Part shown: piece by piece, positions 1,438-15,645 of the stretch
Layout of the letters: each line of letters begins with the position of its first letter
Position numbering within the stretch: the first letter of the stretch is position 1
Source of the DNA: Agromyces kandeliae
Lineage (GTDB): Bacteria > Actinomycetota > Actinomycetes > Actinomycetales > Microbacteriaceae
Direction of reading: 5' to 3'
Length of the DNA stretch: 64,000 nucleotides
Assembly: GCF_009674665.1 (NCBI RefSeq)
Contig: NZ_WKJD01000016.1
Location: 310,001-374,000 of the forward strand
Made by a program: the position numbers and the translations under genes
Notes under the pieces: model-generated
Seen by the model: the letters and a program-made list of their open reading frames with translations, nothing else
What the model was told of the DNA's origin: nothing
Databases searched by the model: none

Positions 1438-2850
1438 TCAGCATCGGATGACCTGCGCCACCGAGACGGCCCTCAACCCATCGACTCCGAACTCCGTTCC
1501 ATAGCCCGACTGCTTCACGCCGCCGAACGGCACTGCGGGGTGCAGCCCGCCATGGGCGTTGATCCATACCGTACCCGCGTCGATCCGGGCGGCGACGGAC
1601 CGCGCGCGCTCGGGGTCGCCCGACCAGACCGATGCGCCGAGACCGGTTTCGAATGCGTTCGCCGACGCCACGGCCTCCTCGATGTCGTGGAACCGGACCA
1701 CGGGCAGCGCCGGCCCGAACTGCTCCTCGTGCACGAGCGGCGCGTCGTCGCCGAGATCGGAGACGATCGTCGCCGGGTAGAAGTTGCCCGGTGCTGTGCG
1801 GTCGGGGTTCCCGCCGGCGGCGACGCGCGCGCCGCCCGACTTCGCCGATTCCACGAGCCGGTCCACGATCTCCCATTGGCGGCGGTTCTGCAGCGGCCCG
1901 AGCAGGCTCGACGGATCGGATGCGGGCCCCATCGGGGTGGTGCGGGCGAGTTCGGCGAGGGCCTCGACGAGGTCGTCGTGCACGGCATCGTGCGCGTACA
2001 CGCGCTTGACGGCGGCGCAGGTCTGGCCGCTGTTCGTGAACGCACCCCAGAACAGGTCGGCGGCGATCGCTCGCGGATCCGCATCCGGCAGCACGATGGC
2101 GGGGTCGTTGCCGCCCAGCTCGAGCGTGAGCCGCGCGAGGTTGGCAGCGGATGCCTCCACGATCCTGCGTCCGGTCGCCGTCGAGCCCGTGAACATCACC
2201 TTCCCGACGCCCGGGTCGGCGACGAGGCGGGCGCCGACCGCACCGTCACCGACTACCGCGTGCAGGACGCCCGGGGGCAGCGCCTCGTTCATGACCGCGC
2301 AGAGCGCGAGCCCGGAGAGCGTCGTGTACTCCGACGGTTTGGCGATCACCGCGTTGCCCATGCGCAGCGCCGGGGCGATCTGCCAGGTCGCGATCATCAT
2401 CGGCCAGTTCCACGGCGTGATCGCCGCGACGACCCCGACGGGTCGGTGGGCGACCGTGGCGAGATCGCCGGGCACGTCGCGAGTGCCGTCCGGCTCGGGA
2501 AGGTCGGCGGTCGCGCGGACCCAATCCACGCTCGCCGCGACCTCGAACCGGGCGTTGGGACCGTCGAGCGGCTTGCCCTGCTCGAGCGCGAGGATCGCAG
2601 CCAGCTCGTCCGCACGCCGCTCGACGGCGTCGGCCGCCGCATGCAGCGTCGCCGCGCGCTCATCCGACGTCGCCGCCGCCCAGCCCTCTTGCGCCCGGCG
2701 TGCCGCCGCGACCGCCGGAGCGACCGCGTCAGGCCCGTGGTCGGGGGCGACGGCGAACACGCGACCGGTCGCAGGATCCGGCACGGGCCGGCCGGTGCCG
2801 GACCGGTCGACCACGTCCTCGAGGAGGGCCGGGAACGTCATCGTGGTCAT
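1438..2850 (-). CDS. NAD(P)-dependent aldehyde dehydrogenase
   Basis: This 470-residue protein has the full aldehyde dehydrogenase fold. Visible motifs are TPWNWP (145-150), the cofactor-pocket KPSEYTT (171-177), FTGSTATG (220-227), LELGGNDP with general base Glu244, and FTNSGQTC with catalytic Cys278. It oxidises an aldehyde to the acid. It is the last gene of the ten-gene operon, and its ATG overlaps the previous stop by four bases (ATGA), which implies translational coupling. The substrate cannot be told from sequence; from context it is an aldehyde released during sugar-acid or glycoside breakdown. Confidence 0.9.
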   Translation of the reverse strand: MTTMTFPALLEDVVDRSGTGRPVPDPATGRVFAVAPDHGPDAVAPAVAAARRAQEGWAAATSDERAATLHAAADAVERRADELAAILALEQGKPLDGPNARFEVAASVDWVRATADLPEPDGTRDVPGDLATVAHRPVGVVAAITPWNWPMMIATWQIAPALRMGNAVIAKPSEYTTLSGLALCAVMNEALPPGVLHAVVGDGAVGARLVADPGVGKVMFTGSTATGRRIVEASAANLARLTLELGGNDPAIVLPDADPRAIAADLFWGAFTNSGQTCAAVKRVYAHDAVHDDLVEALAELARTTPMGPASDPSSLLGPLQNRRQWEIVDRLVESAKSGGARVAAGGNPDRTAPGNFYPATIVSDLGDDAPLVHEEQFGPALPVVRFHDIEEAVASANAFETGLGASVWSGDPERARSVAARIDAGTVWINAHGGLHPAVPFGGVKQSGYGTEFGVDGLRAVSVAQVIRC

Positions 2851-3266
2851 CGTCGCGGCTCCGGGTGCCAGGACTTCGCGATGATCGTCCATCCCGCGTC
2901 GAGTCGCACCAGCTGGAGCTCGTCGACGTACGTCGTGTCGGCATCGGCGTCCTGGACACGGACGATCGCGGTCGTCGGCGTGCCCACCGACGCCAGGAGG
3001 ACGCGTGCGGCGCCCTCGCCCGGCGCGGTGCCCGCGACCGTCGACCGCCGGCCGGAGACCGCCGCGATGAACTCGTCGCGCGTGTGCACGACCAGTCGCC
3101 CGTCGAACGACGCGGTGAGCCGGCACTGCGGGTGCATCACGCGTTGCAGGCGTTCGGGGTCCGCCTGCTCGAATCCGGCCACGTACTCGTCGACGACCTC
3201 GAGGATGCGATGGTGGTCCTCGCCGTGCGGCGCGGACCCCGGCGGCGACCACTTCGCGGTGCTCAT
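2847..3266 (-). CDS. NTF2-like (putative lumazine-binding/SnoaL-type) protein
   Basis: A 139-residue soluble protein of the NTF2-like cone fold. Typical features are the N-terminal helix pattern ending in FEQADPERL, a central strand LTASFDGRLVV, and the last strands TTYVDELQLVRLDAGWTIIAKSWH. Such proteins are small enzymes or binding proteins, and none of the motifs here identifies a reaction. Both ends overlap neighbours by four bases (ATGA), so it is made together with the fusion hydrolase upstream and the aldehyde dehydrogenase downstream. Confidence 0.75.
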   Translation of the reverse strand: MSTAKWSPPGSAPHGEDHHRILEVVDEYVAGFEQADPERLQRVMHPQCRLTASFDGRLVVHTRDEFIAAVSGRRSTVAGTAPGEGAARVLLASVGTPTTAIVRVQDADADTTYVDELQLVRLDAGWTIIAKSWHPEPRR

Positions 3267-4906
3267 CGGAGCTCCCGGGTCGCCCAGTCGACGATCGCGC
3301 GGCCGATGCGGTGCGGGTCGTCCTCCGGGGTCCAGTGGGTGCCCGTGACACCGACCTCGGTGAGCGCCGCGAACCCGGCGATCGTGTCGGCGCGACGCCC
3401 GTTGCAGAGCGCGCCCGGGATGCCGCGGTAGTGCAGCTTGGGCACGGGTGACGACCTCATCCACTCGGCCTGCGCCTCCAGTGCCACGCGCGTCGGGGTG
3501 TCGGCGTTGCCGAGCGGAACCGAGCGCGGCCACTCGAGCGTGGGACGCCGCCCCTCGCCGGGCTCGGCGTACGGGCGCTCGATCTCCGCGAGCTCGGCCT
3601 CGGAGATCGGGCGGATCACCGCCCGCTGGACGTTGTTCAGGAAACGGTTCTCGTCGAGCACGGCGCGCTCCCCCTCCGGGGTGAGCAGGAACTGGAACTC
3701 GGGCAGGATCGGCGCCGGCCAGTCGGTCCATTCGAACGGCGGCAGGATCGCCTCGCCGAACACGATGCCCCGCACGCGCGAGGCGTTGCGCATCGCCCAG
3801 TCGATCGCGAGGTTCGACCCCCAGTCGTGGCCGACGAGCACGATCTCGTCGCCGAGGTCGAGCGCCTCGAGGAGCCCGTCGAGATACCGCGCGTGCTCCG
3901 CGAACGAGTAGCGCCCGGGCCCCGAGTCCGGCAGCTTGTCGGAGTCGCCGGCACCGATCAGGTCGACCGCGACCACCCTGCCGAGCGTGCAGACATGCGG
4001 CATCACGTTCCGCCAGAGGTACGACGACATGATGTCGCCGTGCACGAACACGAACGCGGGCCCCTCGCCCTCGTCGATCACCGCCATCTCGCGGTCGTGC
4101 GACCGCACGCGGCGCTTCGACGCGTAGGGCTCCGCCGAGAGCGGTTCGCGCGCCCCGACGTCGATGTGCTCGGGCTTACCTGGCGTCAGCCAGCGCAGGC
4201 GGTCGTCGAGGCCCTCGGCGGCGAAGGCGGCGGCGATCTCGCGCTCACCCTCGGTGAAGTGCTCCCAGGAGGTGAAGTGGATCGGCACCACGACGTCGGC
4301 TGCGAGGAACCCGGAGAACCGCGCGGCCTGCGCGCCATCCATGGTGATGAGCCGGTCGCCCAGCGCCTCGATCCTGGCGGCGCCCAGATGCAGCACCGCG
4401 ACCCCGATCGGGAAGCGTTGGCCGATCACGTCGAGCGACGCGTCGTAGACGGTGTCGCCGCTCACGTAGAGCGCCTGGTCCTCGTCCGGCGACTCGATGA
4501 CGAACCCGATCACGTCGGCGCCGCTCTCGCCGTGGTCGGCGGGCGTCGCAGTGATCGTAACGGTGCGTCCGCGCACCACGAGCTCGGTGCGCTCCCAGGG
4601 CGCCAGGCCGACGGCCTCGGCTCCGAGGCGCGCCGCGGCCGCGGCCGTGGTGACCGTGGGGCGCCCGGGCAGGAGCGTCCGACCCGTCGCATCGAGGTTG
4701 TCGACGTGCTCGTCGTGGCTGAGCAGCACCACGTCGATGTCGGGCAACTCGTCGACCGTGAGCGCGGGGCCCTCGGTCGACCGGAGGGTGACCGGGCCGA
4801 GCGCGTACTCCGTGGGCGGGTCGAGGACGGGGTCGGTGATGAAGCGGATGCCGCCGAACTCGATGATCACCGTGGCGGTTCCGACGTGCGTGAGCGTCGT
4901 CTGCAT
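3263..4906 (-). CDS. Fusion protein: metallo-beta-lactamase fold + haloalkane-dehalogenase-like alpha/beta hydrolase
   Basis: One uninterrupted 547-residue frame joins two enzymes. Residues 1-250 are a UlaG-like metallo-beta-lactamase fold with LSHDEHVDN (62-70), SGDT (149-152, Asp151) and VPIH (207-210). Residues 255-547 align along their whole length with LinB-type haloalkane dehalogenases: nucleophile Asp361 in HDWGS, Trp362, Glu385 in GEAI and His524 in GTHW. The halide-binding Asn of the HGNP motif is Asp291 (HGDI), so true dehalogenation is doubtful. The ATG at 4906 is 44 bp after the LuxR-type gene. Substrate unknown. A sequencing error joining two genes is possible but would have to remove a stop and preserve both domains. 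Confidence 0.8.
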   Translation of the reverse strand: MQTTLTHVGTATVIIEFGGIRFITDPVLDPPTEYALGPVTLRSTEGPALTVDELPDIDVVLLSHDEHVDNLDATGRTLLPGRPTVTTAAAAARLGAEAVGLAPWERTELVVRGRTVTITATPADHGESGADVIGFVIESPDEDQALYVSGDTVYDASLDVIGQRFPIGVAVLHLGAARIEALGDRLITMDGAQAARFSGFLAADVVVPIHFTSWEHFTEGEREIAAAFAAEGLDDRLRWLTPGKPEHIDVGAREPLSAEPYASKRRVRSHDREMAVIDEGEGPAFVFVHGDIMSSYLWRNVMPHVCTLGRVVAVDLIGAGDSDKLPDSGPGRYSFAEHARYLDGLLEALDLGDEIVLVGHDWGSNLAIDWAMRNASRVRGIVFGEAILPPFEWTDWPAPILPEFQFLLTPEGERAVLDENRFLNNVQRAVIRPISEAELAEIERPYAEPGEGRRPTLEWPRSVPLGNADTPTRVALEAQAEWMRSSPVPKLHYRGIPGALCNGRRADTIAGFAALTEVGVTGTHWTPEDDPHRIGRAIVDWATRELR

Positions 4907-4950
4907 GGGGGTACTTCCTGTCAGGTGGTGATGGGGGTTGAGGGGGCCGG

Positions 4951-5376
4951 TCAGGTGCGCAGCGCGAGGATCGCATCCATCGCGGCGGCGCCGGGGCCCT
5001 GCGGGCGGTACCAGCCGCGCACGAGCGCGCGCGCCGCCGCCTGTGCCCGGCCGAGCCCGAGCTTGCGCCGCAGATGGGCGACGTGCGAGTGGACGGTCCG
5101 CACGCTCAGAGTGAGCGCGCGGGCGATCTCGGCATCGGAGTCGCGCGCGATGAGCTGGGTGAGCACGTCGAGTTCGGCCGGGGTGAGGCCGTTGGGGAGC
5201 TCCGTCGGATGGGCCCGGATCCGCACGCCCGGCAGGCCCTGCGTGCCCGTCGACGGCACGACCTCGACGAACCACCACCCCGATTCCGAACGCCACAGGA
5301 ACGGCAGGCGATCCGTGCCGTGGCGCTCGATGAGCGTGACGATCGCATCGAGGTCGGGGTCGGCGCGGAGGTTCAT
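4951..5376 (-). CDS. Small LuxR-type helix-turn-helix regulator
   Basis: A 141-residue protein whose C-terminal half is a LuxR-type DNA-binding domain (about residues 63-115: LTPAELDVLTQLIARDSDAE, then VRTVHSHVAHLRRKLGL). The N-terminal 60 residues lack a receiver domain with phospho-acceptor motifs and resemble a short sensor or dimerisation segment. It sits inside the catabolic operon, overlapping the upstream dehydrogenase by four bases, so it is made only when the operon is on and may give feedback. A second regulator inside such an operon, besides the divergent GntR gene, is unusual. Confidence 0.8.
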   Translation of the reverse strand: MNLRADPDLDAIVTLIERHGTDRLPFLWRSESGWWFVEVVPSTGTQGLPGVRIRAHPTELPNGLTPAELDVLTQLIARDSDAEIARALTLSVRTVHSHVAHLRRKLGLGRAQAAARALVRGWYRPQGPGAAAMDAILALRT

Positions 5377-6752
5377 CCCACCGGCACCAGTTCGTCGGGC
5401 ACGCCCTGAAACACCATGGGCACCCGGAAGCGGTCGACGGCGAAGGCCCCGACCGACGTGTGCAGGGGCGACGTGCTGGCGGGCCACGGCCCGCCGTGCT
5501 GCATCGACCGGATGACCTGCACGCCCGTCGGCCAGCCGTTCCACACGATGCGGCCGGCGAGTCGGGCGGCCGTCGCGACGAGGCGCCGCGCGAGCGGGCC
5601 ATCCTCCGGCTCCGCGTGGATCGTCGCGGTCAGGGCGCCGTCGACGGACGCCAGCGCGTCCACCGTCTCCTCGTCGTCGGCGACCGTCACGAGCAGCGAC
5701 GCTGGACCGAAGATCTCGTCCGCGAGCGCGGGCGTGGCGCGGAACGTCGCAAGGTCGGTCTGGAGGACTGTGCCGGCACTGCCGGGCTCGCTGACGAGCT
5801 CGGTCACCGCGGCGGCCGTGCCGAGCCGTTCCGCGAAGCGCTCGGCGATCGAGGGGCTGAGCATCGGGCGCGACGCGCGACCCCGGAGCGCGGCGCGGAG
5901 GTCGGGCTCGAGCCCGTGCCCTTCCGGAAGGAAGACCACGCCGGGCTTCGTGCACAACTGGCCCATGCCGAGCAGGAAGGAGTCGATGAACCCGCTCACG
6001 ATCTCATTCCGTCGCGCCCGGAGCGCAGCGCGGGTGATGACGACCGGGTTGATGCTCCCGAGCTCGGCGTAGAAGGGGATCGGATCCGGCCGGGCGGCAG
6101 CGGCATCGAACAGGGCACGGCCGCCCACCTGCGAACCCGTGAACGCCCCGGCGCGGATGGCCGGGTCGACGACCAGGCGCACGCCGGCGTCGAAACCCCG
6201 GACCATCGCGAACGTCCCCTCCGGCGCGCCGGCCTCCGTCAGCGCGTCGCCGATCAGCTCCGCCGTCGTCGCCGAGGTGACCGGATGGCCCGGGTGGGCC
6301 TTGAGCACGATCGGGCATCCGGCCGCGAGCGCCGACGCCGTGTCGGTGCCGGCCACGGAGAAGGCGAACGGGAAGTTCCCCGCGGCGTAGACCGCGACCG
6401 GCCCGATCGGACGGGTCCGTCGACGGAAGCCCTCCTCCAGGAACTCGTCGCCCGCCGCACGCACGCCCTCGGCACCGAGGAAGCGGAGTTGGCGGATCGT
6501 GCGATCCAGCTCGACGTCGAGCCGCTGCTCGGGGAGCCTCGTCTCGATGGACGCGATCCGCCGGAGGTCCGCGCGCGCCTCCTCGATCCGGTCGGCGATG
6601 CGCTCGAGCCAGTCCCGGCGGACCTCCGCGCCCGCGTCGGCGACGGCGGTCGCGGCGAGCGCGGCGCGTCCGGTGGCGGCGGCGAGCTCGTCCGGGCCGG
6701 TGTCCTCGACGCCGAACCTGGGCCGCAGCAGGGGTGCGGTCAGCTCGGTCAT
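5373..6752 (-). CDS. Alpha-ketoglutarate semialdehyde dehydrogenase-type aldehyde dehydrogenase
   Basis: This 459-residue enzyme belongs to the branch of aldehyde dehydrogenases that oxidises 2,5-dioxopentanoate to 2-oxoglutarate. The hallmarks are YAAGNFPFAFSVAGTDTASA (122-141), KAHPGHP, FTGSQVGGR, AELGSINPVV with Glu230, and GQLCTKPG with catalytic Cys267. The family closes non-phosphorylative pathways for pentonates and aldarates. Together with the enolase-superfamily dehydratase two genes upstream this suggests a sugar acid is dehydrated and fed into the citric acid cycle. The ATG overlaps the upstream stop by four bases. A related semialdehyde substrate is possible. Confidence 0.85.
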   Translation of the reverse strand: MTELTAPLLRPRFGVEDTGPDELAAATGRAALAATAVADAGAEVRRDWLERIADRIEEARADLRRIASIETRLPEQRLDVELDRTIRQLRFLGAEGVRAAGDEFLEEGFRRRTRPIGPVAVYAAGNFPFAFSVAGTDTASALAAGCPIVLKAHPGHPVTSATTAELIGDALTEAGAPEGTFAMVRGFDAGVRLVVDPAIRAGAFTGSQVGGRALFDAAAARPDPIPFYAELGSINPVVITRAALRARRNEIVSGFIDSFLLGMGQLCTKPGVVFLPEGHGLEPDLRAALRGRASRPMLSPSIAERFAERLGTAAAVTELVSEPGSAGTVLQTDLATFRATPALADEIFGPASLLVTVADDEETVDALASVDGALTATIHAEPEDGPLARRLVATAARLAGRIVWNGWPTGVQVIRSMQHGGPWPASTSPLHTSVGAFAVDRFRVPMVFQGVPDELVPVG

Positions 6753-8872
6753 GCCGTCGTTCCCGTCGCTGCCACCGCGTCGGCCGCCGCACTCGACGCG
6801 GCGGTGACCACCACGACCTCGTCGCGGCCGATCGTGAGTTCGCCGCCGTCCAGCGGCACCGGTGCACGTCCCATCCGGTGCACAGTCAGGGCCTCGCCCC
6901 GGTCGGCACGGCGCCCGATCCGCACCGTGCGCGGCTCGAGCTCGAAGTGGTTCAGCACGAGCGCCTCGCCTCGGCCGTCCCAGGAGCGGTGGGCCGAGGC
7001 GAGGACGTCCGGCCCGTCGACGGCCCAGTCCCATGGGTCGACGAGCGAGCTCTCCCAGATCCAGCCGCGGAGACCGCGACGGAACTCGAGGGCGCGCCTG
7101 ACATAGTCCGACGTCAGCGGGACGTCGGTGGCGGACCCGTGCATCCAGGCGGGTTCGAGCGAGATGATGTGCCCGAACCGCAACGAGTTGTTCACGAGCC
7201 CGTAGTCGTGCGGCCCGGTGACGGCGCACGTCTGCCGGTGCTCGGGGAACGCCGCCGCGAACGTGGGGAAGTGCGTCGCCGAGAAGTACCTGGCGTACGA
7301 GGCGTTGGCGAACCGCGGCGTCCGGTCCCAGTGCGACTCCGCGGCGAGGCAGAAGTCGTCGCGCTCGCGGCGCCCCTCGGCGAGCAGCTCCGCCATCGCC
7401 GCCTGCAGGCCGGTGCCGAGCGTGGTGGCGATCGTGCCGGGGGCGTCCGGGTTGTAGTCCATCCCGAAGAACCCGCCGCCGAGCACCTTGTCGAGCTGGA
7501 TGCCGGCCGCGTGCCGGTCGAGGATCCCGCGCATCTGGTCCATCCACCGGGCCCGGAACGCGTCGTGCGCGGGGTTCATCCACGCCATCCGGTACCCGGA
7601 GAGCTGCTCGACGCCGGTCGTGGTGTTGTAGTCCCATCCGACGGTGTCGTAGTGGTTGCCGTGCGGGTCGGTGATCGCGTATCGGCGCAGTTCGCCCCAG
7701 GCATCCGTCTCGATGTTCGCGACCTGCAGGTTGCCGAAGACGAGCACCTTGACGCCGAGCTCCTCGCAGGCGCGTAGCGCCGCGGTGAACTCCTCGCTGG
7801 TGCCGAGCCGCGGATCGGACGAGTAGTCGGGATAGTTGCGGTCGAGGCCGCCCCGGTGCCATCCGCAGATCTGGATGACGTTGATGCCCGCGCTCCTGGC
7901 TTCCTCGGCGAGGCGTGGCAGGTCGGAGTAGCGGAAGCCGATCTCGCCGTCGGGGTAGCTGATGATCGTGGACTGCCAGGCGTCCTCCTCCGCGAGCCAG
8001 CTGCGCGGCGACACCTCGAAGTGCTCGTCCCACCACCGCCGGAAGATGCGCGCGCCCTGCCACCACGTGCCCTGGTGGAAGCGGAGGGCGACCGGGGCCG
8101 AACTCCACTCGCCGCCCGTCTCCAGGAAGGGGAACGACGACCACGCCGCCATGAGCCCGAGCGGCGTGTCGTCGCCGAGCACCTCGGGATCGGGCCAGAC
8201 CTGGAGGTCGCCCCGGTACACGGGCCCGGGGAAGAGCTGGAGCTGGAACACGGCGTGGGCGCCATCCGGATCGTGGATGCCGACGTAGAGGCCGCGCCGG
8301 TCCTCCTCCGAGTACAGGTCGACCCACGGCATGCCGGACTTCGTGTGGTATGGCAGCACCCAGACCGGGTTGCGGGGGCCGAGGTAGGTCCCGGGGAACT
8401 GGGAGAAGACCTCGAACTCGTCCCCCGCACCCAGGGGTCCGGGATGGTGCAGCCGCCACTCGTGCTCGCCGGGCCGGCCGAGCCCGCCGAGGGCCGGGGA
8501 CACGACCTCCTCGACCTGGAACGGGCTGCCGTTGCGGACGGTGGTGACGACGTCGACCCCGCCGCCTGCCAGCCGCCAGCGCTGGGTGACGTCGATGTGG
8601 AGGTCGCCGGCGACCTCGCTTCGGACGCCGCGCCACGTCAATCGGACCTCGTCGGCGCCGACGTCGACGGATGAGAGCCGCTGCCCGCTGCCGCGCACGT
8701 AGTGATGCCGGAGGTCGGGCATCGGCACGAGCAGCCGCCAGTTCTCCGCGAGCCTCGGCTCGGCGACGAGCGAGGTCCGCGCGATCGGGTCCTCGAGGGT
8801 GAGCAGGGCGCCCGTGGCGCCGTCGAACGCCAGTGCGACGTGCGCGTCGCCGAGGCGGATCGGTTCGGTCAT
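6749..8872 (-). CDS. DUF6259-type putative glycoside hydrolase
   Basis: A 707-residue cytoplasmic protein without a signal peptide. The N-terminal ~270 residues look like an all-beta supersandwich domain. The middle (about 290-560) resembles a TIM barrel with aromatic- and Asp-rich loops, such as ICGWHRGGLDRNYPDY, VGWDYNTTTG, IQLDKVLGGGFFGMDYNP and CLAAESHWDR. The C-terminus is a short beta domain. This matches DUF6259 proteins, which are distantly related to clan GH-D (GH36-like) hydrolases. The Asp in IQLDKV and the Glu in AAESHW are candidate catalytic residues, by inference. It probably trims an imported oligosaccharide or glycoside for the enzymes downstream. Confidence 0.7.
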   Translation of the reverse strand: MTEPIRLGDAHVALAFDGATGALLTLEDPIARTSLVAEPRLAENWRLLVPMPDLRHHYVRGSGQRLSSVDVGADEVRLTWRGVRSEVAGDLHIDVTQRWRLAGGGVDVVTTVRNGSPFQVEEVVSPALGGLGRPGEHEWRLHHPGPLGAGDEFEVFSQFPGTYLGPRNPVWVLPYHTKSGMPWVDLYSEEDRRGLYVGIHDPDGAHAVFQLQLFPGPVYRGDLQVWPDPEVLGDDTPLGLMAAWSSFPFLETGGEWSSAPVALRFHQGTWWQGARIFRRWWDEHFEVSPRSWLAEEDAWQSTIISYPDGEIGFRYSDLPRLAEEARSAGINVIQICGWHRGGLDRNYPDYSSDPRLGTSEEFTAALRACEELGVKVLVFGNLQVANIETDAWGELRRYAITDPHGNHYDTVGWDYNTTTGVEQLSGYRMAWMNPAHDAFRARWMDQMRGILDRHAAGIQLDKVLGGGFFGMDYNPDAPGTIATTLGTGLQAAMAELLAEGRRERDDFCLAAESHWDRTPRFANASYARYFSATHFPTFAAAFPEHRQTCAVTGPHDYGLVNNSLRFGHIISLEPAWMHGSATDVPLTSDYVRRALEFRRGLRGWIWESSLVDPWDWAVDGPDVLASAHRSWDGRGEALVLNHFELEPRTVRIGRRADRGEALTVHRMGRAPVPLDGGELTIGRDEVVVVTAASSAAADAVAATGTTA

Positions 8873-10059
8873 GGCAGTGCGACTCCCTCGTACCGTCGGC
8901 CGGTCGCGGCGCGGTCCTCGAATCGCGCTCGCGCCTCGGGGTCGATGCGCGTGGACGCGCCCGGTGTGGTCGGGAGCCGGAGCGTGCCCCGGTGCACGTC
9001 GATGCGCTCGGCGAACAGCTCGAGGCCCCACGGGAGGTACTCGATCATCGCCTCGCGCGCCGATCCCACGCCCGCGACCAGGTGCTGGTGGACCTGCATC
9101 ATGTCGCCGGCGTGCGGGACGACCCAACGCGACGCCTCCTGGGCGGCGTGGGCCACGCGGAGCCACTCGGTGATCCCGGCGACGCGGGTCACGTCGACCT
9201 GGACCACGTCGACCGCGTCGGCGTCGAGGAACGTCGCGAAGCTCTCGGCCGAGTAGACGCTCTCGCCCAGCGCGATCGGCAGGGCGCCGTCGCGCGCGAG
9301 CCGGGCGTGGCCCTGCACGTCGTCGGGGTGGAGCGGCTCCTCGAGCCAGCCGATCCCGAGGTCCGCGAGCGGGCGGAGGGCGCGCAGCGCGGTCACCCGG
9401 TCCCACCGCTGGTTCACGTCGACCATGAGCTCGACGTGGGCGGGGAGGGCCTCGCGGACGGCCGTGACCCGCGCGAGATCTGCGCGCAACGAGGGTCCGC
9501 CGACCTTCATCTTCACCTTCGACCAGCCGGCCTCGACCATGCCCTGCATGTCGTCGATGAGCTCCTCGACGGTGAAGTTCAGCCAGCCCCCGTCGGTGTT
9601 GTAGGTCTCGAGCTCCGCATGGCGCCCGCCCAGCAGCTGCCAGAGCGGCATGCCGGCACGCTGCGCCGCCAGGTCCCACAGTGCGATGTCGACCATCGAC
9701 TGCGCCATGTGCGCGACCCCGGCGCGGCCGACCCAGTGCAGGGGCGACCAGTACGCGTCCTGCCAGATCGCGCCGATCATGGCGGCGTCCGCGCCCTGGA
9801 GCCGGGGGGCGAGGTACTCGTGGATCGCCCGCAGCACGAGGTCGTCGCCCGTCCAGAGACCCGAGTAGCCGGTGCCGACGAGTCCGTCGGCGGTCGTGAT
9901 CTCGACCACTGGGACCACCCAGTGCGTGCGGTCGTAGATCGAGTCGGAGAGCGGGCGTCGCAGCGGCGGACGCAGCACGTACGTCTCGATCCGCTCGATG
10001 CGGCTGGCGGGGTCGGTCGAGACCGGCGTCGACGCGGTCTCGAGTTCGTCGGCGATCAT
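8869..10059 (-). CDS. Enolase-superfamily sugar-acid dehydratase (mandelate racemase/muconate lactonizing subgroup)
   Basis: The 396 residues contain the N-terminal capping domain and a modified TIM barrel. Metal ligands are Asp214 (VDVN), Glu240 (WLEEP) and Glu266 (ALGES). Catalytic bases are the KxK pair Lys183/Lys185 (KVKMKVG) and the Asp289/His316 dyad (VDVTR and VVPHAG). That pattern belongs to acid-sugar dehydratases such as those for rhamnonate, fuconate, galactarate or talarate, which remove water to give a 2-keto-3-deoxy acid. The nearby rhamnosidase makes L-rhamnonate a reasonable guess, but the specificity loop cannot be read reliably. Starts at ATG 10059 with four-base overlaps on both sides. 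Confidence 0.85.
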   Translation of the reverse strand: MIADELETASTPVSTDPASRIERIETYVLRPPLRRPLSDSIYDRTHWVVPVVEITTADGLVGTGYSGLWTGDDLVLRAIHEYLAPRLQGADAAMIGAIWQDAYWSPLHWVGRAGVAHMAQSMVDIALWDLAAQRAGMPLWQLLGGRHAELETYNTDGGWLNFTVEELIDDMQGMVEAGWSKVKMKVGGPSLRADLARVTAVREALPAHVELMVDVNQRWDRVTALRALRPLADLGIGWLEEPLHPDDVQGHARLARDGALPIALGESVYSAESFATFLDADAVDVVQVDVTRVAGITEWLRVAHAAQEASRWVVPHAGDMMQVHQHLVAGVGSAREAMIEYLPWGLELFAERIDVHRGTLRLPTTPGASTRIDPEARARFEDRAATGRRYEGVALP

Positions 10060-10817
10060 GCGCCGGCCGCCCCGTAGACGATGAGCTGCACGATCTCCTC
10101 GACGGTGCTCTCGCTCCTCCGTCGCACGCCGGCGAGGCGTCCGAGGTGGAGCACGGCGAAGCGGTCCGCGAAGTCCCACACCTGCTGCAGGTTGTGGCTG
10201 ATGATGATGACGGCGCATCCGCTGTCGCGGAGCTCGTGCGCGAGCGCCATCACCTTCGCCGACTCGCTCACGCCGAGGGCCGCGGTGGGCTCGTCCATGA
10301 TGATGAGCTCGGCGCCCGAGACCACGGTGCGCGCCACGGCGACGGCCTGGCGCTGGCCGCCCGACATCACGCCGACCGGAACCCCGCTGGCTGGAAGGTG
10401 GCCGAGCTTCAACTGCTCGAGCACCCGTCGACTCTCGGCCACGTTGCGCTTGACGTCGATGAACGGGCCCCGGGTGTACTCGCGCCCGAGGAAGAGGTTC
10501 GCCGCGACGTCCCTCGTGTCCACGAGCGCGAGGTCCTGGTACACCGTCGCGATGCCGGCCGCCTTCGCGTCGGCGGGCGACTGGAAGCGCTGCGGGACGC
10601 CGCGCATCCGGATCTCGCCCGAGTCGGTGGCGTAGAGGCCGCTGAGGATCTTGATCAGCGTGGACTTGCCGGCGCCATTGTCGCCGAGCAGTGCGAGCAC
10701 CTCGCCCGGGGCGATGTCGAGGCTCACGTCGGTGAGCGCCTGGATGTGCCCGAAGGCCTTCGAGATGCCGCGCACCGAGAGGAGCGACTCGAGGGCGGGT
10801 GCCTGGTCGGTGGTCAT
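10056..10817 (-). CDS. Sugar ABC transporter ATP-binding protein (single-domain, ribose/fructose type)
   Basis: A 253-residue ATPase with Walker A GDNGAGKST (45-53), signature MSGGQRQ, Walker B LIIMDEPTAALG and switch His in IIISHN. It has only one nucleotide-binding domain, like FrcA, rather than the tandem form of RbsA/XylG, so it should act as a homodimer on the cytoplasmic side of the permease encoded next. It overlaps its neighbours on both sides by four bases. The substrate is likely a monosaccharide or small glycoside, from family and context. Confidence 0.92.
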   Translation of the reverse strand: MTTDQAPALESLLSVRGISKAFGHIQALTDVSLDIAPGEVLALLGDNGAGKSTLIKILSGLYATDSGEIRMRGVPQRFQSPADAKAAGIATVYQDLALVDTRDVAANLFLGREYTRGPFIDVKRNVAESRRVLEQLKLGHLPASGVPVGVMSGGQRQAVAVARTVVSGAELIIMDEPTAALGVSESAKVMALAHELRDSGCAVIIISHNLQQVWDFADRFAVLHLGRLAGVRRRSESTVEEIVQLIVYGAAGA

Positions 10818-11815
10818 CGTGAACGCCTCTTCCGTCGGATCGCCTCCATGACGACGGCGAGCACGAGCACGGCGCCGTTCAGGAGCTGCTGGTAGTAGGA
10901 CTGCACGCCGAGGAGCACGAGGCCGTTGGCGAGCACGCCGATGATCAGGACACCGATGAGGGTGCGCTGCACGGAGCCCGTGCCTCCGCCGAGGCCGATG
11001 CCGCTCAGCAGCACGGCCCCGAGGACCGTGAACATGTCGGCGGCACCGTAGCTCGGGTCGCCCGCGCCGGTCCGGCCGAGCACGATCACCCCGGCGAGCA
11101 CGGCGAGGCCCGAGCTGATCAGCAGCACCGTGAAGTAGATGCGCTTGACCGGGATGCCCGCACGGAGCGCCGCCGAGCTGTTGCCGCCCACGGCGTAGAT
11201 GTGGGCGCCGAGCTTGGTCTTCGACAGGAGGATCCAGCCGGCGACGTAGACGGCGATGGCGATGAGCATCGGCACGGGCAGGCCGAGGATCCGGGCGTTG
11301 ACCCAACTGAACACGGTCGGGTCCGGGAGGGGGACGACCTGGCCGCTCGCGACCAGGTAGGCCCCTCCCGTGACCGCCGTGCCGACGGCGAGGGTGCTGA
11401 TGATGCTGGAGATGTTGAGGTGCACGATCAGCACACCGTTCAGCACGCCGACGAGGAGACCCGCCACCACCGCAGCCAGCACGGCGACCGCGACCGGCAC
11501 GCCGGCACTGGTCAGAACGGCGATCAGCACCGCGGTGATCGCGATGACCGACCCGAACGAGATGTCGAGTTGGCCCGCGATGAGGGCGATCGTGACGCCC
11601 GCGGCCAGGATCCCGGTCTGCGCCACCGCCTGTCCGATGTTCAGCAGGTTGCCGACCGTGAGGAAGTACGGCGACGCGACGCTGAACACGAGGACGAGGG
11701 CGGCGAGGGCGATGTAGATCCCGACATCGAGGATCCGGTCGACCGGGTCGGCCTTCGGCTTCGGCGGCGGCGAGGCCGGCGGGGTGCCGGGCTGGGCGAC
11801 GATGGTGGCGGTCAT
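10814..11815 (-). CDS. Sugar ABC transporter permease (RbsC-like)
   Basis: A 333-residue inner-membrane protein with about ten hydrophobic helices starting near residue 30. It carries the BPD_transp_2 signature GNLLNIGQAVAQTGILAAG, LIAGQLDISFGSV, NSSAALRAGIPV (the cytoplasmic coupling region) and LGAVLLSGIGLGGGTGSV. This is the ribose/xylose/autoinducer-2 permease family. The N-terminal ~22 residues are Pro/Lys-rich and cytosolic. Its stop is one base from the binding-protein gene upstream, and its end overlaps the ATPase gene. The two copies in the transporter are presumably identical. Confidence 0.93.
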   Translation of the reverse strand: MTATIVAQPGTPPASPPPKPKADPVDRILDVGIYIALAALVLVFSVASPYFLTVGNLLNIGQAVAQTGILAAGVTIALIAGQLDISFGSVIAITAVLIAVLTSAGVPVAVAVLAAVVAGLLVGVLNGVLIVHLNISSIISTLAVGTAVTGGAYLVASGQVVPLPDPTVFSWVNARILGLPVPMLIAIAVYVAGWILLSKTKLGAHIYAVGGNSSAALRAGIPVKRIYFTVLLISSGLAVLAGVIVLGRTGAGDPSYGAADMFTVLGAVLLSGIGLGGGTGSVQRTLIGVLIIGVLANGLVLLGVQSYYQQLLNGAVLVLAVVMEAIRRKRRSR

Positions 11816-11816
11816 C

Positions 11817-12896
11817 TCAGTCCTCCGGGTAGAGCTCGTCGACGTTGTCGCGAGTGATGACGCGTTCGGGCGCCGGGATCACGAATTCCTCGTCGAGCGC
11901 AAGCGCGAGGGCGGCCTCCACCCAGCGCCATCCGGCGCCCCACGGGTTCAGGTCGACCTCGCCCAGGATGATGCCGTCGTCGCTCTTGAACGCCGCGCGA
12001 CCCACCTCGTCGGCGCCGATCGTGACGATGCGGACGTCGTCCTGACGACCGGCGGCCTGGACGGCCTGCAAGGCGCCGACGCCGGCCTGGTCGTTCATCG
12101 CGACGACGGCGATCGCCTGCTCGGGGTGCGCGGTGAGGAAGTCGGCCATGACCCGCACGCCGTCGGCCACGGTCGCGGACTTGCCGAGGTCGGGGAATTC
12201 CGCGGAGTCGGGCTCGACGCCGCCGGCCTCGAAGCCCTCGAGTCCGCTCTCGACCCGTTCCATCGTGGTGGGGATCGCGGCCTGGCCGAGGCCGACGAAG
12301 ACGACCTCCTGGTCGGCCCACTCGTCGTCGACGAGCGGCGCGACGCCTTCGGCGAGGACGGACCCGGCGAGCATGCCGGTCTCGCGCTCCGGGGTGCCGA
12401 TGAAGCCATCGGCACCCTCGATGGGGATGCCGCTCGCGAGGAGCTTCACCCCGTCGGCGCGCGTGCGGTCGACGAGTCCGGCACCGGACGGCGTCAGGAT
12501 CCCGACCACCTCGGGCTGGAAGACGGAGATCGTGTCGTACTTGTTGACCGCGTCGGCGAAGTTGAAGTTGCCGAGGTCTGCCTCGTGGATGTCGACGCCG
12601 TAGAACTCGGCGGCGGCCTTGTACCCGTCGCTCATCGACTTGAAGAACGGCGTTCCGAGCGATGGGTTGATGTACGCCAGGTTGAGGTCCTCGGGCAGGG
12701 ACTTCGGGACCGAGAACACGGAGGTCACGTCGTGGATGCCGGTGGCGGTCGTGACGTCGTCCTGGGTGTACCGGTCACCGGAACCGCCCGCTGCGGGGGG
12801 TTCGGCAGAGCTGTTCGCGGCGGTCGCGCATCCGGCCAGCAGCAGCACCGTCGCTGAGACGGCCAGTGCGGACGACAGCCCGGAGAAGTGCTTCAT
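11817..12896 (-). CDS. Sugar ABC transporter substrate-binding lipoprotein
   Basis: A 359-residue exported protein. A signal peptide ends in the lipobox LLAGC with Cys23 as the lipidation site, followed by a Ser/Ala/Gly linker. The remainder is a periplasmic-binding-protein type 1 fold of the ribose-binding (RbsB) class, with NPSLGTPFFKSMSDGYKAAA near the N-terminus and VAMNDQAGVGALQAV in the second lobe. First gene of the ten-gene operon. It has an AGGAGG ribosome site and lies about 40 bp from a predicted promoter with a regulator palindrome. It captures the sugar outside the cell for the permease and ATPase encoded next. Confidence 0.92.
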   Translation of the reverse strand: MKHFSGLSSALAVSATVLLLAGCATAANSSAEPPAAGGSGDRYTQDDVTTATGIHDVTSVFSVPKSLPEDLNLAYINPSLGTPFFKSMSDGYKAAAEFYGVDIHEADLGNFNFADAVNKYDTISVFQPEVVGILTPSGAGLVDRTRADGVKLLASGIPIEGADGFIGTPERETGMLAGSVLAEGVAPLVDDEWADQEVVFVGLGQAAIPTTMERVESGLEGFEAGGVEPDSAEFPDLGKSATVADGVRVMADFLTAHPEQAIAVVAMNDQAGVGALQAVQAAGRQDDVRIVTIGADEVGRAAFKSDDGIILGEVDLNPWGAGWRWVEAALALALDEEFVIPAPERVITRDNVDELYPED

Positions 12897-13006: not shown

Positions 13007-13015
13007 ATGCATGAT
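13007..13015. promoter_or_regulatory. Predicted GntR operator 2, at the GntR gene start
   Basis: ATGCATGAT is shared with the palindrome 66 bp away. It overlaps the first candidate ATG of the GntR gene, which fits autoregulation and favours the later ATG at 13023 as the translation start. Confidence 0.5.
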
Positions 13016-13742
13016 CAGTCTCATGAGCACCCTCACCACGGGCCGCCCCTCCCGACCGTCCCGCGTGGACGAAGCGTTCGACTTCATCGCCGAGCGGATC
13101 TTCGCGCAGGACGTCCGACCGGGCGACTTCCTGCGCATCGACGCCATAGCCGGCGAGCTCGACATGAGTATCACGCCGGTGCGCGAGGCGCTGAACCGCA
13201 TCGCGGCGGTGGGGCTCGCGCAGGCGGACGCGAACCGCGGCTACCGGGTCGCCCCCCTGCTCGACACCTCGGCATTCCACCGACTCTTCTCGGCCCGGCA
13301 CGCGATCGAGATGGCGGCGGCTCGAGGAACCGACGACCAGCCGAACCGGTGGGTGCGCGACCTCGACCGGGCCGACGTCGATCGGCTGGGCGAACTCGTA
13401 GACCGCATGGGCACCATCGAGCACGACAGCTCGTACCAGCAGTACTCCGAGTACAGCCGACTCGACGGGCTCCTGCACCGCGAGTTCATGCGGCTCTCCG
13501 GCAACGAGTTCCTGCTCACGGCATGGCAGAGCCTGCACTTCCACATGCACGTCAGCCGCCTCTACACGGGCGTCGGCGTGATCGACTTCGACGAGGCGCA
13601 GGCCGAGCACCACGCACTCGTCGATGCGCTGCGCGAGCGGGACGGCGAGCTGTTCGTCTTCCTCTGCGACAAGCACATCCGCCGTGCCGAGCAACGCCTC
13701 TCGCACCTGCTTCCCAGCCTTCGGGACTCCGCAGCGGAGTGA
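13011..13742 (+). CDS. GntR-family transcriptional regulator (FadR/FCD type)
   Basis: A 243-residue regulator. The winged helix at about residues 16-85 contains AGELDMSITPVREALNRIAA and ends with the wing residues NRGYRVAP. An all-helical FCD ligand domain follows, with LDGLLHREFM and AEHHALVDAL contributing likely metal or ligand His residues. It is divergent from the sugar-acid operon, with shared palindromes between them, so it probably represses the operon until a sugar-acid intermediate binds. The start is uncertain: 13011 overlaps the palindrome, and ATG 13023 (MSTLTTGR) would shorten it by four residues. It is the first of four plus-strand genes. Confidence 0.88.
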   Translation: MISLMSTLTTGRPSRPSRVDEAFDFIAERIFAQDVRPGDFLRIDAIAGELDMSITPVREALNRIAAVGLAQADANRGYRVAPLLDTSAFHRLFSARHAIEMAAARGTDDQPNRWVRDLDRADVDRLGELVDRMGTIEHDSSYQQYSEYSRLDGLLHREFMRLSGNEFLLTAWQSLHFHMHVSRLYTGVGVIDFDEAQAEHHALVDALRERDGELFVFLCDKHIRRAEQRLSHLLPSLRDSAAE

Positions 13743-13795
13743 GGGCCGACGCGGGCGCCGAACCGGCGTCTGCGGCACATCGAAAGGAGATCCCG

Positions 13796-14650
13796 TTGCC
13801 CGGCGATTCGACGACGAACCTCGGCGCACTGTCCCGCCTGACCCCGGATCACGTCCTCGGGGCGGCCCGTCTCGTGCACCGTGGCCGGGTCTACGACCTC
13901 GGTCAGGAACTCAGCGAACGTGTGCCGCAGGGTGCGCCGGGCGCGTTCACTCCGTTCTCATTCACCTGGCGGACCACGCCCGAGGAGTGCGCCCGCGATG
14001 GGCACGCGCACGAGTTCGCCGCGGAGACCATCACCGGCGCGTTGCACGTGAGCACCCACATCGACGGCCTGGCGCACGTGTCGGCGGAGGGCCGGATCTT
14101 CGGCGGCGCCTCGGTGTCCGAGGTGCGTCGCGACCGTGGTTTCTCGAGCCACGGAATGGAGACGGTGCCCCCGATCATCGGTCGCGGTCTCCTACTCGAT
14201 GTCGCCGGAGTCCTCGGCATGGACGCCCTGCCCGACGGCTACGAGGTGACCGTCGACGACCTGCGGCGCACCCTCGACGCCGGAGGACTGACCATCCGCT
14301 CGGGCGATGTCGTCTGCGTCCGGACCGGCAAGTCGCGCGAGTACCTCGCCGACCCCGTCGCGTATCAGGCGGGCCAGCCGGGTGTCGGTCCGGATGCCGC
14401 GATCTGGCTCCACGAGCAGGGCATGGCCGTGCTCGGCACGGACACGACCGGGACCGAGCCCCTGCCGTTCCCGGACGAACGCCGCACCACCCACCGCGCG
14501 ATGCTCGTGGACCGGGGCGTGCACCTGATCGAGAACCTCGCCCTCGACGAGGCGGCGCGCGACGGCGTCACCGAGGGCATGCTCGTCTGCCTCCCACTGA
14601 AGATCAACGGCGCGACGGGCTCGTGGGTACGGCCGGTGCTGCTGTGCTGA
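13796..14650 (+). CDS. Cyclase / kynurenine-formamidase-like hydrolase
   Basis: A 284-residue protein of the cyclase family (PF04199), metal-dependent hydrolases that open cyclic or amide substrates. The metal-binding motif is HVSTHIDGLAH (His84, His88, Asp90, His94), with Ser where most members have Gly. TDTTGTEPLP near the C-terminal third is also typical. The TTG start at 13796 is chosen because a strong GAAAGGAG lies six bases before it and no ATG fits. It lies 53 bp after the GntR gene, and the next gene starts inside its last codons. In this setting it may open a lactone or act on a side product, but the substrate is unknown. Confidence 0.8.
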   Translation: MPGDSTTNLGALSRLTPDHVLGAARLVHRGRVYDLGQELSERVPQGAPGAFTPFSFTWRTTPEECARDGHAHEFAAETITGALHVSTHIDGLAHVSAEGRIFGGASVSEVRRDRGFSSHGMETVPPIIGRGLLLDVAGVLGMDALPDGYEVTVDDLRRTLDAGGLTIRSGDVVCVRTGKSREYLADPVAYQAGQPGVGPDAAIWLHEQGMAVLGTDTTGTEPLPFPDERRTTHRAMLVDRGVHLIENLALDEAARDGVTEGMLVCLPLKINGATGSWVRPVLLC

Positions 14651-15645
14651 GCGCGCCGACCTCCATCCGGATCGGCCTGATCGGCGCCGGCGCGGCGGGC
14701 CGACTCCACGCCGATGCCATCGCTGCTGTTCCCGGGCTCAGCCTGACCGCGGTCGCCGAATCGCGATCCGGACGTTCGGACGACTTGGCGCGCGCGCACG
14801 GGGCGACCGTCCGCACCGTCGACGAGCTCTTCGGCGCGAACGACGTCGACGCCGTCTTCATCGCCTCGCCGACGGCGAGCCACCTCCCGCTGGCCCACCG
14901 GGCGATCGCCGCCGGCCTGCACGTTTTCGTGGAGAAGCCAGTCGCCGAAAGCCCCGACGAGATCCGCGCGCTGGCCCGGGCCGCCGCCGGCGCCGGGGTC
15001 GTGATCGTGCCCGGCCACAACTACCTGCACCAGCCCGAGTGCTCCCGCCTCGTCCGCCAGGCCAGGGACGGCACCCTCGGACGCGTCAGGTCGCTCCACA
15101 TCTCCTACGCGATCCGGCACGAGGAGGAGCTCGCGAGCCACTACGACGGAGTGCTGCACGAGGTCATGGTGCACCACGCCTACCTCACGCTCGCGGCACT
15201 CGGCCGCCCCGATCGCGTCCACGGCGGCGTCTCGGCAGCGCACTGGGCGCGACTCGAGACCGACGACCAGGCGTGGATGGTGTGGGAGTACGACGACGGC
15301 GCGCTCGCGATGCTCTACGGCACGTTCGCGGTCGACGACCTCGGACCGGAGCCCGGGACCTTCGCCGTGAAGGCGCTCGGCACCGAGGGCACCGCCTCGT
15401 ACTCCTGGCGCAGCACGACTACCGTCGACCGCGGCGGCCCGTTCACGTTCGGGATCCCGCTCTACGAGGAGACCTACACGCATCAGGCGCGCGCATTCCG
15501 AGACGTGCTCCGCGGCGAGGCCGAACCGGCCTCGACGCTCGAGGACGCCGCCGTCGCCGCGGAGATCGTCGCATCGGTCGGCGCCGACGCCGACTCCTAC
15601 GCGACCGGGGAACGCCGTCGCACCACCAGAGAGGATCCAGCATGA
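14644..15645 (+). CDS. Gfo/Idh/MocA-family NAD(P)-dependent oxidoreductase
   Basis: A 333-residue dehydrogenase. The N-terminal Rossmann fold carries GLIGAGAAGRLHADAI and is followed by the family's EKPVAES motif with the conserved Lys. The C-terminal part is the substrate-binding sheet domain, with HEVMVHHAYLTL placing candidate catalytic His residues. These enzymes oxidise or reduce sugars, inositols or sugar acids. The GTG start at 14644 overlaps the cyclase stop. ATG 15642 of the next gene overlaps this gene's stop by four bases, so the three are translationally coupled. Confidence 0.87.
   Translation: MLSAPTSIRIGLIGAGAAGRLHADAIAAVPGLSLTAVAESRSGRSDDLARAHGATVRTVDELFGANDVDAVFIASPTASHLPLAHRAIAAGLHVFVEKPVAESPDEIRALARAAAGAGVVIVPGHNYLHQPECSRLVRQARDGTLGRVRSLHISYAIRHEEELASHYDGVLHEVMVHHAYLTLAALGRPDRVHGGVSAAHWARLETDDQAWMVWEYDDGALAMLYGTFAVDDLGPEPGTFAVKALGTEGTASYSWRSTTTVDRGGPFTFGIPLYEETYTHQARAFRDVLRGEAEPASTLEDAAVAAEIVASVGADADSYATGERRRTTREDPA

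Follow-up and report, generated by a model that had tools for sequence, protein, structure and literature searches.

A metallo-beta-lactamase/LinB-like fusion protein with an altered halide site in Agromyces kandeliae

What does an enzyme that is built like a haloalkane dehalogenase do when it has lost one of the two residues holding the halide and is joined to a metallohydrolase? This question is raised by a gene of the soil bacterium Agromyces kandeliae, located on the minus strand of a 64,000-nucleotide stretch of contig NZ_WKJD01000016.1 (hereafter the window, in which all positions are counted). Its product carries an N-terminal metallo-beta-lactamase (MBL) fold domain and a C-terminal LinB-like alpha/beta-hydrolase domain. 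The fusion is conserved in a second species and both domains are under purifying selection; the catalytic triad and one halide-stabilizing Trp are kept, and the halide-stabilizing Asn is replaced by Asp, as it is throughout a small clade. The reading that we favor, although we would place it slightly below an even chance, is that a catabolic operon of the sugar-acid type encodes here a bifunctional hydrolase whose Asp-nucleophile domain has been repurposed from dehalogenation.

One reading frame and two domains

The reading frame starts with an ATG at position 4906 and runs without an inner stop to a stop codon at 3263–3265, and the plus strand of the same segment is interrupted by a stop. Both Pfam matches, Lactamase_B_2 at residues 21–211 and Abhydrolase_1 at residues 283–405, exceed the gathering score, and NCBIfam assigns the protein to PRK03592, the equivalog model for haloalkane dehalogenase, with 297.3 bits where 241 are required. 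A full-length orthologue with 81% identity over residues 1–546 was found in Agromyces sp. H66 (locus L034). The features of the gene are listed below, with the predicted local distance difference test (pLDDT) score of the structural models and the ratio of nonsynonymous to synonymous substitution rates (dN/dS) between the two species where these apply.

4914–4919, minus strand: Shine-Dalgarno-like AGGAAG upstream of the ATG, present in the window and in H66
3263–4906, minus strand: coding sequence of the MBL and LinB-like fusion, 547 residues, stop codon included (translation; H66 orthologue without indels)
4172–4906, minus strand: N-terminal MBL fold domain, residues 1–245 (Pfam PF12706, 57.9 bits; pLDDT 92.4)
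4697–4717, minus strand: altered metal motif HxxHxDN, residues 64–70 (HDEHVDN), with H125, D151, and H210 as further likely ligands (alignments)
4136–4171, minus strand: linker, about residues 246–257 (pLDDT <50 at 254–260; dN/dS 0.53 over 241–265; frame intact in both genomes)
3266–4135, minus strand: C-terminal LinB-like alpha/beta-hydrolase domain, about residues 258–547 (LinB 1cv2, Z 44.2; PRK03592, 297 bits)
4034–4042, minus strand: HGD, residues 289–291, in which Asp291 replaces the halide-stabilizing Asn, followed by Ile292 in place of Pro (HGD in 3 of 35 LinB-like sequences, HGNP in 32 of 35)
3821–3826, minus strand: nucleophile Asp361 and halide-stabilizing Trp362 (D108 and W109 in the LinB alignment)
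3752–3754, minus strand: catalytic acid Glu385 (aligned with LinB E132)
3332–3337, minus strand: catalytic base His524 and clade-specific Trp525, HW (H272 and F273 in the LinB alignment; all 3 HGD sequences have this Trp, and none of the 32 others does)

The single 547-residue frame with an MBL domain and a complete LinB-like domain, which had been proposed by a first-pass annotation made from the DNA letters, is borne out by the translation, the Pfam matches, and the H66 orthologue. The two genes align without a gap over 547 codons, and their differences fall on the three codon positions as 62, 52, and 225 (225 of 339 at the third), while third-position GC is high throughout the gene in both genomes, the joint included. 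The dN/dS values of 0.12 for residues 1–240, 0.53 for residues 241–265, and 0.17 for residues 262–547 indicate that both domains are under purifying selection, far more so than the linker. The same annotation had named the outcome that would overturn it, namely that all homologues are two separate genes and that a base error at about 4130–4170 removed a stop. In favor of such a sequencing or assembly error it can be said that the joint has been seen in two genomes only; the second species, however, has the identical joint with no indel and an unbroken coding signal, by which the error is ruled out for practical purposes. The possibility that translation of the LinB-like half begins separately, at an internal start, was also considered and rejected: by eye, and unscored, no clear Shine-Dalgarno sequence with a start codon is common to the linker DNA of both genomes, the window having one GTG preceded by a weak GAAG and H66 having no start codon at that GTG.

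The fusion is rare. Among 60 genomes of the genus it occurs at full length in two, including that of the window, and samples from the family (398 genomes), the order (396), and the phylum (396), which overlap and in which the best three candidates per genome were scored, gave no full-length match besides the window's own genome (the best six were scored in the class and in the phylum of Aureimonas; the cut-offs of the genome searches were strict, 1e-30 to 1e-75). None of 178 matching plasmid records spanned 80% of the fusion, and no relative was found in the viral contigs searched. Across the 70 loci examined, both domains occur in one protein only in the window and in H66, and the inspected matches to the MBL half are separate genes. 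Neither a fusion of this kind nor the HGD variant is mentioned in the open-access papers searched, in the portions available, most subscription journals lying outside this scope.

The halide site and the clade that shares it

The predicted model of the LinB-like half superimposes on LinB (1cv2) with Z 44.2 and a root-mean-square deviation (rmsd) of 1.3 over 291 residues at 47% identity, LinB and the ancestral AncLinB-DmbA (7pw1) being its best solved relatives. In this alignment D291, D361, W362, E385, and H524 of the fusion correspond to N38, D108, W109, E132, and H272 of LinB, so that the earlier assignment of four kept residues and an Asp in the place of the halide Asn (HGDI) proved correct; the equivalents of W109, W207, F151, and F169 are retained. 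Substitutions of Asn38 in LinB, Asn38Asp among them, are reported to alter its kinetics markedly, and haloalkane dehalogenases (HLDs) of subfamily I have Glu at this position and a second Trp as halide ligand. The published catalytic pentad of HLDs includes two halide-stabilizing residues, Trp plus either Trp or Asn (PMC10503415, PMC10619424; LinB table rows in PMC6100074), and the pentad of subfamily II requires Asn and Trp (PMC10619424, PMC10503415). The fusion has the alpha/beta-hydrolase fold with the HLD cap, and it has the Asp-His-Glu triad; of the two halide-stabilizing residues it has Trp362 but Asp291 instead of Asn. By the halide-residue definition, it does not belong among the subfamily II dehalogenases, though it is built like one.

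After the removal of ten duplicates and a fragment (L074), 35 distinct LinB-like sequences were available, 32 with HGNP and three with HGD, namely those of the window, of H66, and of genome G461 (L071), which belongs to another family of the same order; these counts cover the inspected loci only, and the 32 HGNP sequences are not a census. Our maximum-likelihood tree showed that the three HGD sequences cluster together (support 99/99), and this clade persists (98/97) after removal of the columns of the three common motifs. In LinB numbering, all three share N38D, P39I/V, F273W, L138F, and deletion of the cap residue L174, and of these the Asp at N38, the lost Pro39, the L174 deletion, and the Trp at F273 occur in none of the 32 others. 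As far as these alignments indicate, HGD is a clade trait and no peculiarity of the window protein. The altered halide site described in the first-pass annotation is indeed present; it is not peculiar to this protein, since it marks a clade that also includes a fusion of another kind.

That fusion is encoded at L071:9118-10410 in G461, where one frame joins a DUF6616 domain to an HGD-type LinB-like domain, in a single genome and at a joint without a confirming orthologue. Sequence searches link DUF6616 to no solved structure with any clarity (best E 0.58). The same genome carries a second LinB-like gene of the HGN type, and two of ten other genomes of its genus gave matches, both HGN. Further members of the clade were found neither in 349 genomes of the phylum of Aureimonas (three loci matched, all HGN) nor in 374 genomes of the class (five matches besides the window's own, all HGN). 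No plasmid record, of 144, spanned 80% of the G461 two-domain protein, and one matched at 60–80% identity. Less than 10 kb from this gene lie two genes (L071:144-2227), one resembling muconate cycloisomerase and one for a catechol 1,2-dioxygenase, the latter above its cut-off. An aldehyde dehydrogenase of the same locus is 57% identical to aldehyde dehydrogenase 1 of the window, a likeness to which we give no weight because such enzymes are common. In addition, seven genomes of the window's genus (L028, L039-L043, and L045) encode a different LinB-like protein with the motif HGNPGSSHQW, 38–40% identical to the C-terminal half of the window protein.

Two rival explanations bear on this site. 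According to one, the C-terminal half has remained a haloalkane dehalogenase, in which a protonated Asp291 together with Trp362 holds the halide of a halogenated sugar or a xenobiotic. The PRK03592 score above the cut-off, the LinB fold, the retained pocket residues, and the Glu of subfamily I at this position speak for it, and so does DmmarA, which is a haloalkane dehalogenase (PMC10619424) with Asp instead of Glu as the acid and Ala for a conserved active-site Pro, although its Asn and Trp are intact. On the other hand, Asn is present in 32 of the 32 other sequences, Asp is confined to a clade of its own that has other changes close to the site, the operon resembles one of sugar-acid catabolism, and the kinetics of LinB are reported to suffer marked changes when Asn38 is substituted; we consider continued dehalogenation unlikely, though it deserves to be kept in mind. 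According to the other, only the MBL half is enzymatic, and the LinB-like half is relaxed or serves a purely structural or binding role. The loss of a halide ligand and of the adjacent conserved Pro would fit this, but the dN/dS of 0.17 and the preservation of nucleophile, base, and acid in all three HGD sequences make it rather improbable.

The metallo-beta-lactamase half and the operon

The MBL half was modeled alone because searches with the whole model gave only dehalogenase-type structures among the 50 matches listed. The model of the entire fusion has a mean pLDDT of 89.3 and a predicted template modeling (pTM) score of 0.68, compared with a pTM of 0.91 for the MBL half alone. The MBL fold itself is clear (Z 23–29 to solved MBL-fold hydrolases): the closest fold is 3rpc (Z 29.2, rmsd 2.4, 236 residues), followed by SaxA (Z 26.9), Igni18 (26.0), NAPE-PLD (25.6), TM1162 (25.2), and UlaG (23.2). 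Foldseek E-values do not separate these candidates, a NAPE-PLD entry (8p90, identified by the sequence that it shares with the NAPE-PLD match of the profile search) coming first, UlaG second, and SaxA slightly behind. In the profile search, SaxA (6e-21) and NAPE-PLD (3e-16) came well before UlaG (3e-6 over 88 profile positions). The description of this half as UlaG-like in the first-pass annotation thus holds at the level of the fold, whereas by sequence SaxA and NAPE-PLD are nearer.

The expected metal motif is not found in this domain. The usual MBL motif is HxHxDH (PMC10340364), and the consensus of metal ligands comprises five His and two Asp (PMC7846560). Compared with the HxHxDH of SaxA and NAPE-PLD, the motif of the fusion has one inserted residue and Asn for the final His. 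In the alignment, H64, H67, D69, H125, D151, and H210 occupy putative ligand positions of the consensus, Asn70 takes the place of the His that follows the Asp, and His216 might stand in for the missing ligand. Which residue binds which metal we have assumed by analogy with NAPE-PLD. H64, H67, D69, N70, H125, D151, H210, and also H216 are invariant in 40 of 40 standalone MBL relatives, which were selected for their similarity to the query (L036 and L038 were excluded because they duplicate L007 and H66, and L037, at 25% identity, fell below the cut-off). The invariance of HxxHxDN marks it as a trait of the family, probably with an altered metal site, and not as decay. This MBL subfamily occurs in related actinobacteria, and its closest standalone member, 62% identical (G239), adjoins a PfkB kinase and a major facilitator superfamily transporter.

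The fusion gene stands in a run of minus-strand genes in the order ATP-binding cassette (ABC) importer, enolase-family protein, DUF6259 protein, aldehyde dehydrogenase 2, LuxR-type protein, fusion, Lumazine_bd_2 protein, and aldehyde dehydrogenase 1, with several starts overlapping the stop of the previous gene. The neighboring genes are as follows.

13011–15645, plus strand: divergent GntR/FCD regulator, PF04199 cyclase-family protein, and Gfo/Idh oxidoreductase (in H66 the first two have counterparts of 82% identity, with a GFO_IDH_MocA gene adjacent)
10056–12896, minus strand: ABC importer of the sugar type, comprising substrate-binding protein, permease, and ATPase (Pfam; 87–91% identity in H66)
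8869–10059, minus strand: mandelate racemase/enolase family protein (nearest model talarate/galactarate dehydratase, 281.7 bits against a cut-off of 500; 91% in H66)
6749–8872, minus strand: DUF6259 protein (PF19773, 39.6 bits; 80% identity in H66)
5373–6752, minus strand: aldehyde dehydrogenase 2 (PF00171, 133 bits; 71% identity in H66)
4951–5376, minus strand: small LuxR-type helix-turn-helix protein (PF00196, 39.8 bits; 69% identity in H66)
2847–3266, minus strand: Lumazine_bd_2 (NTF2-like) protein, whose start overlaps the stop of the fusion (PF12893, 69.7 bits; 58% identity to the gene at the corresponding position in H66)
1438–2850, minus strand: aldehyde dehydrogenase 1, the final gene of the run (PF00171, 461 bits)

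The gene order of H66 is syntenic, with 58–91% identity per gene; no equivalent of aldehyde dehydrogenase 1 lies beside the fusion in the H66 stretches examined, where the run is followed by short-chain dehydrogenase/reductase and TetR genes on the other strand. The best NCBIfam matches of the importer are sugar transporters, and the transporter and dehydratase matches of the operon are all below the curated cut-offs. The DUF6259 protein (707 residues, no NCBIfam match at 1e-5) we take to be glycosidase-like, and it is a possible glycosidase. Judging from gene content, the reading of the first-pass annotation that this is a sugar-acid operon holds in its main lines, the importer, the dehydratase-like enolase-family protein, the DUF6259 protein, the aldehyde dehydrogenases, and the Gfo/Idh oxidoreductase all fitting it.

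A third rival would have the C-terminal half turned to OleB-type chemistry on a strained beta-lactone. OleB is a beta-lactone decarboxylase of the HLD superfamily, linked to the class III enzymes, and oleBC fusions are known from Micrococcales (PMC7064751). The fusion, however, has Glu at the acid position of subfamily II and LinB as its nearest relative, and no OleA-, OleC-, or OleD-like domain was found among the neighbors scanned with Pfam, so this chemistry seems highly unlikely here.

A proposed reaction and comparison with known systems

In the bifunctional hydrolase that we favor, a short linker connects an MBL-fold metallohydrolase to a LinB-like Asp-nucleophile hydrolase, and the LinB-like half probably works like a subfamily II dehalogenase up to the covalent ester: Asp361 would still attack an electrophilic carbon, and water activated by His524 would hydrolyze the resulting ester. 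An acidic Asp291 near the nucleophile should not stabilize a halide as Asn does; when protonated, it would more likely give a hydrogen bond or a proton to an oxygen leaving group, as in an ester, lactone, epoxide, or activated ether, or it may instead bind a hydroxyl of the substrate. The MBL half, whose metal site has no His in the usual place behind the Asp, probably cuts a neighboring bond, such as that of a lactone or ester, in the same or a related pathway intermediate. We infer that both halves are hydrolytic and might, as the first-pass annotation suggested, act in sequence on one substrate; the fusion would link their activities or keep them in a constant proportion. The reaction of this protein may well differ from its automatic label of haloalkane dehalogenase.

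Several points weigh against this proposal. The PRK03592 cut-off for dehalogenases is still passed, a protonated Asp291 could in principle serve a halide, and the case of DmmarA means that departure from the pentad alone is no proof of a new reaction. The fusion is found in few genomes, the arrangement of its two domains relative to each other in the predicted structure is unsure, and the neighbors of the standalone MBL relatives are varied, no common theme emerging from the ten that were scanned. Moreover, two of the three HGD sequences are orthologues, and the third, from G461, is on a long branch and has an unlike neighborhood (catechol dioxygenase and GMC oxidoreductase); a common non-halide chemistry of the HGD sequences is therefore no more than possible. 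More broadly, it is possible, though we hold it doubtful, that the HGD proteins stand apart in the haloalkane dehalogenase superfamily as a branch not yet described, which has left halide chemistry for another hydrolysis through a covalent Asp ester and is placed C-terminal to exchangeable partners (MBL or DUF6616), and that in the window both re-tooled sites process one sugar-derived metabolite in two steps.

The fusion is a variant within known families, and HGD is newly recognized as a clade trait. What makes the finding moderately surprising is that one rare HGD branch carries two different N-terminal partners. The evolution and engineering of enzymes are often studied with dehalogenases as a model family, and a branch that arose in nature with Asp for the halide Asn, its nucleophile, base, acid, and Trp unchanged, would, if the reading is true, show this scaffold changing its chemistry. 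Automatic annotation would name the fusion a haloalkane dehalogenase, above the curated cut-off, and this label is doubtful. EnzymeMiner 2.0 checks user-defined essential residues, and its dehalogenase use case excludes proteins with extra Pfam domains (PMC13355053). By these rules, proteins of the fusion type would be excluded by their extra domains, and also by their residues if the halide Asn is set as essential, which may be why such proteins remain unremarked.

Among known systems, LinB of subfamily II resembles the fusion most in its fold, cap, Asp nucleophile, Trp, Glu acid, His base, and pocket (F151, F169, and W207), while the fusion differs in Asn to Asp, Pro to Ile, HF to HW, the deletion of L174, and the MBL domain in front. 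The DUF6616 and LinB-like fusion of G461 shares HGD, the cap deletion, and HW, and is nearest in the tree after H66, but its N-terminal partner is not MBL and its neighbors resemble those of aromatic catabolism. Of the solved structures that bear a name, SaxA, an isothiocyanate hydrolase, and human NAPE-PLD come closest to the MBL half in the profile search and rank near the top in fold comparison, although they have HxHxDH where the fusion has HxxHxDN. UlaG, a lactonase of sugar-acid metabolism, has the MBL fold in common with the N-terminal half, but its N-terminal helical extension is missing from the window protein (residue 1 of the model aligns with UlaG residue 36, the first 35 being unmatched), and the termini of UlaG are named as distinctive of its family in PMC3219644. 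Finally, OleB and OleBC are like the fusion in being a non-dehalogenase enzyme of the HLD superfamily naturally fused to a pathway partner, and unlike it in belonging to subfamily III, in having OleC as the partner, and in serving a hydrocarbon pathway.

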